Of a DNA stretch of 25,475 nucleotides, positions 23,864-25,124 are shown piece by piece. The DNA lies in IMG/VR virus record IMGVR_UViG_3300030047_000115, positions 1 through 25,475 of that record, one strand, 5' to 3'. This DNA is from a virus. The notes beneath the pieces are model-generated. The model was given only the letters and a program-made list of their open reading frames with translations. It did no database searches and was not told the DNA's origin. Each line of letters begins with the position of its first letter. The first letter of the stretch is position 1. A program made the translations under genes and the position numbers.

Positions 23864-23890
23864 TAATTAAAGATACTTTTTTATAATATA

Positions 23891-23919
23891 ATTATACCAT
23901 AGTTTTTGTTTTTTGACAA
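23891..23919 (-). promoter_or_regulatory. Promoter P3, late operon
   Basis: TTGTCA (23919-23914), 17-nt spacer, TATAAT (23896-23891) on the minus strand, with TGG just before the -10 (extended -10 style). The -35 lies immediately after the U-tract of a terminator. Start predicted near 23884. Confidence 0.8.
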
Positions 23920-23920
23920 T

Positions 23921-23958
23921 AAAAAAATACACAAAAAGCGTATGACAAATTGTGTATT
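23921..23958 (-). terminator. Intrinsic terminator T3
   Basis: AAATACACAA/TTGTGTATTT, a 10-bp stem (959-950 and 934-925) with a 15-nt loop, followed by a run of T on the minus strand. It ends the predicted short RNA that starts near 24005. Confidence 0.75.
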
Positions 23959-24005
23959 TATTTATAGAGATAAACACCCTTTCGGGGATCGACCTTTTTA
24001 TCTCC
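23921..24005 (-). ncRNA. Predicted short RNA 2 (about 85 nt)
   Basis: Between promoter P2 (24012-24041) and terminator T3. The 5' part forms a hairpin GAGATAAA/TTTATCTC (24004-23997 with 23974-23967) containing an inner CCC-GAAA-GGG stem-loop with a GNRA tetraloop on this strand. No credible protein is encoded on this strand. It could be a regulatory RNA, a leader remnant or packaging-related RNA. Transcription has not been shown. Confidence 0.5.
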
Positions 24006-24011
24006 ACAATC

Positions 24012-24041
24012 ATTATAGCAAAAAAATAGCGCTAGTGTAAA
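24012..24041 (-). promoter_or_regulatory. Promoter P2, -35 inside a terminator stem
   Basis: TTTACA (24041-24036), 18-nt spacer, TATAAT (24017-24012) on the minus strand. The -35 lies in the loop-proximal part of terminator T2. Start predicted near 24005. Confidence 0.6.
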
Positions 24042-24094
24042 GCGTTCAATACACTAGCGCTATCCTTTTTAAACCAAACATAGAACATTTATCC
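24019..24094 (-). ncRNA. Predicted short RNA 1 (about 75 nt)
   Basis: From promoter P1 (24101-24129) to the U-tract of T2. It begins with TGTGGATAA-containing sequence and ends in a 14-bp terminator stem. A possible 18-codon leader ORF (24088 to 24032, MFYVWFKKDSASVLNALH, stop in the terminator stem) has no good SD, so it may be a leader peptide or chance. Confidence 0.4.
24020..24063 (-). terminator. Intrinsic terminator T2 (14-bp perfect stem)
   Basis: ATAGCGCTAGTGTA (24026-24039) and its exact reverse complement (24050-24063), 10-nt loop, seven T on the minus strand. A shorter T run on the plus side means it may work in both directions. Confidence 0.9.
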
Positions 24095-24097
24095 ACA
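24089..24097 (+). promoter_or_regulatory. DnaA-box 9-mer in the P1 initial transcribed region
   Basis: TTATCCACA is the strongest-type DnaA box sequence. It overlaps the predicted transcription start of P1, where bound DnaA could repress. A single copy; may be chance. Confidence 0.3.
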
Positions 24098-24100
24098 TAT

Positions 24101-24129
24101 ATTATATCATAAAATAAAAGCGCTGGCAA
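24101..24129 (-). promoter_or_regulatory. Promoter P1, -35 inside a terminator stem
   Basis: TTGCCA (24129-24124), 17-nt spacer, TATAAT (24106-24101) on the minus strand, continuing as the shared 12-mer TATAATATATGT. The -35 is part of the T1 terminator stem. Confidence 0.75.
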
Positions 24130-24143
24130 ATTGTTTGTCAGCG
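24110..24143 (-). terminator. Intrinsic terminator T1
   Basis: Minus strand CGCTGACAAA, loop CAA, TTTGCCAGCG (one internal mismatch), followed by CTTTTATTTT. It begins eight nt past the TAA (24151) of the 61-aa acidic gene and ends the right-hand small-gene operon. Confidence 0.75.
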
Positions 24144-24150
24144 TTATTTC

Positions 24151-24336
24151 TTAAAGTGATTCATATTGAGTTGGTACAATTATTTCATACCCTAAGAGCC
24201 AATAGTCGTTATGCTTTTCTGCTATTTGAGGCTCTGAAACGATATGATCTGAAATATACCAGTCAAAATCTTTTATATCCACTTCTTTGTCGTTGATTAT
24301 TATTTCAACTATCTCGTTGCTTATTTTTTCAAACAT
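24151..24336 (-). CDS. Small acidic hypothetical protein, 61 aa
   Basis: ATG at 24336 preceded by AGGAGG (24348-24343) at a 6-nt spacing, one of the best ribosome sites in the window. The SD is inside the last codons of the preceding cysteine-cluster gene, whose TGA stop lies between SD and ATG. The protein is acidic (EIVEIIINDKEVDIKDFDWYI), with no known domain. Small acidic phage proteins are often inhibitors of host enzymes, but nothing specific supports that here. Confidence 0.75.
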   Translation of the reverse strand: MFEKISNEIVEIIINDKEVDIKDFDWYISDHIVSEPQIAEKHNDYWLLGYEIIVPTQYESL

Positions 24337-24339
24337 TAT

Positions 24340-24510
24340 TCACCTCCTAAGTTTAAACATTCTGTTTATTCTTTCTTGATGTTCTTTTTTAGCCTGTTTA
24401 TAATATGCACAACTCATATAAAATTTTTCTATATGAAGTGTACATTCTCCTCGATCTGTTACGTTTTGGACACAAGATGATTCAAATGGACAAATATTTC
24501 CTTGATTCAT
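24340..24510 (-). CDS. Small four-cysteine protein, 56 aa (paralogue 2)
   Basis: ATG at 24510, TGA at 24340; AAGGGGG lies 6 nt upstream as a ribosome site. Cysteines are spaced C-x5-C-x9-C-x10-C (residues 7-34: CPFESSC, then GEC, then MSC), followed by AYY and a basic helical tail. The spacing is identical to that of the adjacent 57-aa protein, so the two are tandem paralogues. Four Cys in this arrangement suggest a zinc or Fe-S site. No named family recognised. Confidence 0.7.
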   Translation of the reverse strand: MNQGNICPFESSCVQNVTDRGECTLHIEKFYMSCAYYKQAKKEHQERINRMFKLRR

Positions 24511-24513
24511 TTT

Positions 24514-24687
24514 CTACCCCCTTACTAAAGGTTCTTTGTTTTCAAGAATCTTTAATTTCTTTTTTTCCACATCTTCCATTAAAACATAAAGTAAACATTT
24601 TTCAACGGGTTGAGGTATTTGTTCTTGGCAATATACCAAACTCATTGAATTATGGTTACAACGACTAGAGAATTTACATTTTTCCAT
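24514..24687 (-). CDS. Small four-cysteine protein, 57 aa (paralogue 1)
   Basis: ATG at 24687, TAG at 24514-24516. AGGAGG at 24700-24695, 7 nt before the ATG, is an ideal Shine-Dalgarno site. The N-terminus (MEKCKFSSRCNHNSMSLVYC) gives C-x5-C-x9-C, and a fourth Cys ten residues on completes the same C-x5-C-x9-C-x10-C spacing as the next gene. The rest is a Lys/Glu helical tail. Its leader contains a hairpin with an anti-SD loop, so translation may be controlled. Metal binding is inferred. Confidence 0.7.
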   Translation of the reverse strand: MEKCKFSSRCNHNSMSLVYCQEQIPQPVEKCLLYVLMEDVEKKKLKILENKEPLVRG

Positions 24688-24714
24688 TTTAATACCTCCT
24701 ATATTAATTTGTTG

Positions 24715-24755
24715 GTAGACAACTAAATGAAGGAGGAGGACATTCAGCTGTCTAC
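24715..24755 (-). promoter_or_regulatory. RNA hairpin with anti-Shine-Dalgarno loop
   Basis: On the minus-strand RNA a 15-bp stem (24755-24741 with 24729-24715) closes an 11-nt loop UCCUCCUCCUU. Two positions that mismatch on the plus strand become G-U pairs on the minus strand, so the fold is favoured in the sense of the genes. The loop complements the AGGAGG site that starts 14 nt downstream. Confidence 0.75.
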
Positions 24756-24778
24756 TAATAAATTAATTTATAAAGTAG

Positions 24779-24867
24779 GTTAAATAAATATGTGCTTGTC
24801 GGCATACGTGTGAAATGGCGATAACTCACGTATAACATATTTATTTAACTCACATTATAAGTGAGTT
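24779..24867 (-). promoter_or_regulatory. Complex structured leader with alternative pairings
   Basis: A 15-bp perfect stem (24779-24793 with 24835-24849) encloses a 7-bp stem (24804-24810 with 24827-24833). A separate 7-bp hairpin AACTCAC/GTGAGTT (24847-24853 with 24861-24867) shares three bases with the first stem, and a second AACTCAC copy lies at 24823-24829, so alternative folds compete. The last hairpin also flanks a TATAAT (24859-24854) that might be a -10 box, so a DNA operator is an alternative explanation. No protein is encoded here. Confidence 0.55.
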
Positions 24868-24872
24868 TAAAT

Positions 24873-25124
24873 TTATTTCTTAAAATCTGGGTTTTGCTCA
24901 AATAAAGTTATAAATTTTGAAATATTTTCTTCGGATAATTCTATTTGTTTTGCAACAGATATAAAATCAACCATTGTTTGAGTGTCTATCTCTCCATATC
25001 TGCTTTCATTCAATAATACTTCCCTACAAATATTAGTAACGTTAGCCATTATTGATTTGCTAAACATTGAATTTAATATTTGATCTAAGAACTCAACTCC
25101 ACTTGCTTTAAAATCAATTATCAT
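24873..25124 (-). CDS. Hypothetical protein, 83 aa
   Basis: ATG at 25124 overlaps the TGA of the HNH gene (ATGA). Helical and soluble, with segments such as SIMANVTNICREVLLNES and ISKFITLFEQNPDF. No domain recognised. Coupled expression with the nuclease gene suggests a related role in DNA metabolism. Confidence 0.7.
   Translation of the reverse strand: MIIDFKASGVEFLDQILNSMFSKSIMANVTNICREVLLNESRYGEIDTQTMVDFISVAKQIELSEENISKFITLFEQNPDFKK

Follow-up and report, generated by a model that had tools for sequence, protein, structure and literature searches.

The window, as we call the whole stretch of DNA analyzed here, comprises 25,475 nucleotides (positions 1 to 25,475) of the viral record IMGVR_UViG_3300030047_000115. 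Its minus strand carries an operon of three small genes spaced 3 nt apart, each with its own Shine-Dalgarno (SD) sequence. Gene 1 (24514..24687, minus strand) encodes a cysteine protein of 57 aa with the pattern CxFxSxCx9Cx10C, and its start codon, AUG at 24687, follows the SD AGGAGGU (24700-24694). Gene 2 (24340..24510, minus strand; SD AGGGGGU) encodes a protein of 56 aa, whereas the product of gene 3 (24151..24336, minus strand; SD AGGAGGUGA) is an acidic protein of 61 aa for which no relatives were found. The products of genes 1 and 2 have the element C-x-F-x-S-x-C in common, together with two more cysteines at equal spacing (E = 0.015 in a single comparison), and by sequence the two genes are probably paralogues. 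None of the three operon proteins had a match above the cut-off in Pfam or PHROGs. In tblastn searches, genes 1 and 2 against annotated phages and the three operon proteins plus the upstream gene against viral contigs recovered only the phage itself, and a two-row profile of the cysteine proteins, for which there was no positive control, found no relatives in 296 Bacteroidota genomes. A structure model of gene 1 built from the two-row alignment was unusable (pLDDT of 49.7) and was discarded. The G+C content of the operon (0.300) is that of the window (0.301).

Downstream of the operon, a hairpin of 20 bp with a terminal T run (24020..24069, minus strand) is likely to be its terminator. This hairpin adjoins a cluster of three close promoter matches of the E. 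coli type (23890-24130, minus strand; 11/12, with TG) in the stretch that separates the operon from the packaging genes; this promoter type is unusual for Bacteroidota. Upstream of the operon, a candidate promoter, TTAAGA-18-TATAAT (24854..24883, minus strand; 10/12, a consensus match only), may begin the mRNA near the foot of a hairpin with a 15-bp outer stem, an inner 8-bp stem, and a bulge (24779..24849, minus strand), which folds on both strands. The TATAAT matches near the operon are E. coli-like and differ from the Bacteroidota type; the coding strand of the window gave no match to the promoter motif of Bacteroidota.

The hairpin in front of gene 1

Between the hairpin at 24849-24779 and gene 1, the same leader contains another hairpin (24715..24755, minus strand), the loop of which mimics the anti-SD (ASD) sequence of 16S rRNA. 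Its 5' arm GUAGACAGCUGAAUG (24755-24741) and 3' arm CAUUUAGUUGUCUAC (24729-24715) form a 15-bp stem on the minus strand, with all 15 of the 15 pairs made, two of them as G-U, and a core energy of -18.9 kcal/mol. The 11-nt loop UCCUCCUCCUU (24740-24730), which reads AAGGAGGAGGA on the plus strand, includes CCUCCUU, a 7-nt copy of the assumed 16S tail CCUCCUU. A 14-nt linker CAACAAAUUAAUAU (24714-24701, minus strand) leads from the stem to the SD of gene 1, and the loop lies 29 nt before that SD. The initial annotation of this DNA, which had described a 15-bp stem, an anti-SD loop, and an ideal SD 14 nt downstream, is confirmed in all of these elements on the minus strand. It had also called the loop complementary to AGGAGGU; this holds for AGGAGG, which forms 6 bp with CCUCCU (-9.8 kcal/mol), but not for the final U, which is left unpaired. 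The hairpin was also considered as an intrinsic terminator and dropped, because no U run follows it on the 3' side.

Function as RNA had been argued from the two imperfect stem positions, which were said to become G-U pairs on this strand only. This is true of the upper 15 bp taken alone (-18.9 kcal/mol on the minus strand versus -9.9 kcal/mol on the plus strand), but it does not hold for the whole hairpin, which extends over 24703..24767 (minus strand) with a lower stem of 12 nt per side (24767-24756 and 24714-24703). The two A.C mismatches of the lower stem become G-U pairs on the plus strand, so that the argument is cancelled: the whole hairpin is equally stable on both strands (-22.8 kcal/mol on the minus and -22.1 kcal/mol on the plus strand). 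The strand must be argued from the gene context instead, as the genes lie on the minus strand and the loop opposes SDs only there.

Because the lower stem occupies 12 of the 14 linker nucleotides, it and a pseudoknot between the loop and the SD are mutually exclusive. Such a pseudoknot would be of the H type, with a geometry of 15 bp in S1, 1 nt in L1, 6 bp in S2, and a linker of 14 nt. In a rough estimate that combines constraint folding with a pseudoknot penalty of 9.6 kcal/mol, which reportedly comes from the Dirks-Pierce model, the pseudoknot has about -23.0 kcal/mol and the extended hairpin -24.3 kcal/mol; the two exclusive states are thus within ~1-2 kcal/mol of each other and equal within an error that exceeds the difference. 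By this modeling, the pseudoknot appears sterically and energetically feasible, and the pairing is a possible one. The suggestion that it would block translation is supported as to the feasibility of the pairing, and a context that the initial annotation had not foreseen makes a function more likely.

The stem and its loop exceed chance expectation. The 231-nt intergenic leader RNA has a fold z-score of -6.05, with none of 200 shuffles folding equally well. Hairpins of at least 15 bp are expected 0.1 times per shuffled window (60 dinucleotide shuffles), and one with a CCTCC loop is observed; across the same number of shuffles, CCTCC-loop hairpins did not occur at all, even with stems of at least 9 bp. 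The motif CCUCC as such is expected ~1.8 times per shuffled window, and because it is rare by composition, it is its place, not its count, that is telling.

Shine-Dalgarno sequences in the phage and its relatives

A second contig, IMGVR_UViG_3300030943_000091 (35,620 bases), represents the same phage, with a leader and operon that are 100% identical. Its ends repeat 127 bases, and the genome is therefore a circle of about 35.5 kb. All accepted genes of the phage are on the minus strand. The terminase is closest to those of Bacteroidota phages and prophages, and its relatives are nearly all from Bacteroidota; we infer from these relatives that the phage is affiliated with this phylum. Gene leaders in the phage are A/T-rich and have no SDs, as is the case in Bacteroidota, and the start contexts in the operon are A-rich like those of the other genes. 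When the 60 called genes were surveyed for duplex energy with an assumed 16S tail, AUCACCUCCUUUCU, strong SDs were confined to the three operon genes (-11.6, -12.4, and -16.1 kcal/mol for genes 1, 2, and 3, respectively); the next-strongest had -8.2 and -8.1 kcal/mol, and most were near 0. Across the circular genome, the coding strand has CCUCC in this loop only, as two overlapping copies, and AGGAGG nowhere but in two of the operon SDs and once inside a gene. The presence of the only SD operon and the only CCUCC in an otherwise SD-less phage makes coincidence much less likely. No bS21 gene was detected in the phage above the family cut-off, the one sub-threshold match being inside a large protein.

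Every copy of the element that we found is 100% identical and belongs to this single phage, so that stem covariation cannot be judged. Conservation of the stem and of the CCUCC loop in related phages, to which the initial annotation had looked, was not borne out: both are absent from the relatives, and the only other copy is the identical one. A hairpin with a CCUCC loop before an SD gene was seen at none of 80 viral terminase-family loci. A complete scan of the viral contigs for an anti-SD followed by a spacer, an A/T-flanked AGGAGGU, and an ATG yielded 77 stretches; of these, none outside this phage had a stem longer than 9 bp. Searches of Rfam gave no match at the gathering score, and none of the sub-threshold matches (E up to 10) was a riboswitch; distant blastn searches, with the leader against phages and with the leader plus operon against plasmids, gave only short matches without shared context. 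One locus (L160) had been considered a relative that also has an SD operon; it was dropped because the sites in it that resemble SDs are weak or internal. Evidence from conservation is missing, not contrary: the operon is known in one variant only.

Among the matches listed by the pattern scans, the only other noteworthy case is an unrelated phage group with 39-40% G+C (L026, L028, L065, and L074). In this group (e.g., L028:9150-9260), an 11-bp hairpin with the loop UUCCUCCUCCUU is followed by CCUCCUAAAGGAGG and ATG, and one of the stem pairs is U-A in some members and U-G in others.

In a broader survey of 127 terminase-family loci from viral and bacterial contigs, a sample in which some loci are redundant, a few bacterial ones are distant, and genes were called crudely, the median ASD pairing of 1,917 genes was weaker than in a control window (-1.7 versus -2.6). 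On the other hand, very strong SDs were in excess over the control, both at or below -14.5 kcal/mol (21 versus 3) and at or below -16 kcal/mol (17 versus 0). These counts suggest a general avoidance of SDs in this phage group, with very strong ones provided for a few genes. Selective SD use may be general among phages of these hosts, whereas no phage but this one is so far known to have the anti-SD hairpin.

In a Sphingobacterium-type phage clade (L184/L302, L293, L188, L189, L183, L193, and L181), the small-terminase gene terS has strong SDs (-12.7 to -17.9 kcal/mol), and several of these loci are otherwise without SDs (median of about -1.3). Two other terminase-family loci contain pairs of very small open reading frames (L305:1534 and 2996; L194:11070 and 11262) with extended SDs resembling that of rpsU, to -21.6 kcal/mol.

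Possible roles of the leader

In Flavobacterium johnsoniae ribosomes, a pocket of bS21, bS18, and bS6 holds the 16S tail, and SDs are ignored; ribosomes that lack bS21 translate strong-SD messages, above all rpsU (PMC9976891). Most Flavobacteriales have one strong-SD gene, and rpsU is often the only one (PMC9976891). The SDs of the rpsU class pair at less than -13 kcal/mol (PMC9976891); by this criterion for an extended SD, gene 3 of the phage operon falls under the limit and genes 1 and 2 just short of it, with the reservation that the energy method differs and the 16S tail is assumed. Some Bacteroidota phages encode bS21, and Tyr54 of bS21 stacks on A1534, which adjoins the ASD (PMC9723584).

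Against this background, we propose that the leader acts as a cis translational gate for a predicted SD-dependent operon of a Bacteroidota phage, a reading to which we assign a probability of roughly 43%. On ordinary Bacteroidota ribosomes, with the 16S tail held by the three proteins, the operon SDs would go unread, and the loop would either pair with AGGAGG (the pseudoknot, off) or be kept apart from it while the extended hairpin is formed. Should ribosomes with a free ASD become common, for example when bS21 is scarce owing to assembly state, stress, or infection, they might prevail over the loop in the competition for the first SD (-11.6 versus about -9.8 kcal/mol). Gene 1 would then be translated first, genes 2 and 3 would follow by means of their own SDs and the 3-nt spacing, and the loop would determine how large a share of the ribosomes must be ASD-exposed. 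In this scheme we infer the host group, the ribosome state as the signal, and the direction of the switch. The gate is supported by the confinement of SDs to the operon, the unique CCUCC in the loop, a stem and loop beyond chance, the near-equal exclusive states, the Bacteroidota affinity of the terminase, SD-specific translation by F. johnsoniae ribosomes lacking bS21 (PMC9976891), and strong SDs on few genes in related phages. What counts against it is that the element is known in identical copies from a single phage, that the SD of gene 1 (-11.6 kcal/mol) is short of the < -13 class, that the pseudoknot energies have large errors, that the few Bacteroidota rpsU leaders read do without such a hairpin, that the TATAAT matches are E. 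coli-like, and that the host and its 16S tail are assigned indirectly.

The closest known system is rpsU autoregulation (PMC9976891), also a case of a rare strong-SD message in an otherwise SD-less genome, presumably read by ASD-exposed ribosomes. Here, however, the message is a phage operon of unrelated small proteins, and its first SD is weaker than that of rpsU; the few Bacteroidota rpsU leaders that were read have no such hairpin and thus offer no precedent. In translational preQ1 and SAM-II riboswitches (PMC10622847, PMC11625349), a loop closed by a leader stem is likewise able to pair with the downstream SD, an H-type pseudoknot competing with the ribosome. The phage leader differs in that it has no Rfam match, a stem of 15 bp, and a loop that is a near-copy of the 16S tail. 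The signal proposed here is also the state of the ribosome, not a metabolite. Staphylococcal RNAIII and other small RNAs with C-rich loops (PMC2837412) are separate RNAs that act in trans. They too expose a pyrimidine loop complementary to SDs, but the loop described here is part of the leader that precedes its own SD operon. Finally, phage-encoded bS21 (PMC9723584) is another instance of phage involvement in the ASD-bS21 system of Bacteroidota ribosomes, although the phage described here lacks a bS21 gene at the family cut-off.

The main rival explanation is that the operon and its leader form an imported cassette, a moron from an SD-using donor. Its SDs and hairpin would then be relics, or an ordinary SD-sequestering leader of that donor, without any tuning to the ribosomes of Bacteroidota. 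The unit is self-contained, from a promoter-like site to a strong terminator; SD use is confined to it; and its cysteine proteins have no relatives in the 296 Bacteroidota genomes. However, its G+C content matches the window (0.300 versus 0.301), no relatives were found in SD-using phages either, and its A-rich start contexts resemble those of other phage genes; we regard such an import as unlikely. A structural role in mRNA stability, or that of an inverted repeat serving as a protein site in DNA, with an incidental loop sequence, fits with the full repeat folding equally well on both strands and with the other long hairpins that flank it. This is less likely again, given that CCTCC is very improbable by chance in a loop of this kind and that the coding strand's only CCUCC stands before the only SD operon.

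Two further alternatives give the loop a different partner. It might act as a decoy for the pocket, binding bS21, bS18, and bS6 on an approaching 30S subunit, displacing the real tail, and thereby licensing SD pairing in cis. The 7-nt match of CCUCCUU to the assumed 16S tail and the tail-holding pocket described in Bacteroidota (PMC9976891) argue for this, but A1534, on which Tyr54 of bS21 stacks (PMC9723584), has no counterpart before CCUCC in the loop, and a hairpin loop may not fit the pocket, which makes the decoy improbable. More improbable still is action in trans, which the initial annotation had also raised, whereby the leader or a processed piece of it would pair with the SDs of other mRNAs. 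In Bacteroidota the target would chiefly be rpsU of the host, so that bS21 would fall and ASDs would become free for the phage operon; such an effect would be limited. Among the few rpsU leaders read, the loop pairs with the AAAGGAGGU-type SDs of two (-10.5 kcal/mol), and rpsU is often alone among the genes of a Flavobacteriales genome in having a strong SD (PMC9976891); two others, however, read AAAGUGGGU and pair poorly (-4.5 kcal/mol), and a separate small RNA is hypothetical.

Beyond the cis gate as such, the leader could be viewed as a sensor of ribosome state, in which a copy of the 16S tail measures, or even creates, the pool of exposed ASDs and restricts the operon to specialized ribosomes that lack bS21, in a host whose ribosomes as a rule ignore SDs; this wider view is doubtful. 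Bacteroidota retain the anti-SD in a hidden state; the worked-out use of its exposure is rpsU autoregulation, and the phage operon, if the proposal is true, would be the second. Phage infection would then be tied to ribosome specialization.
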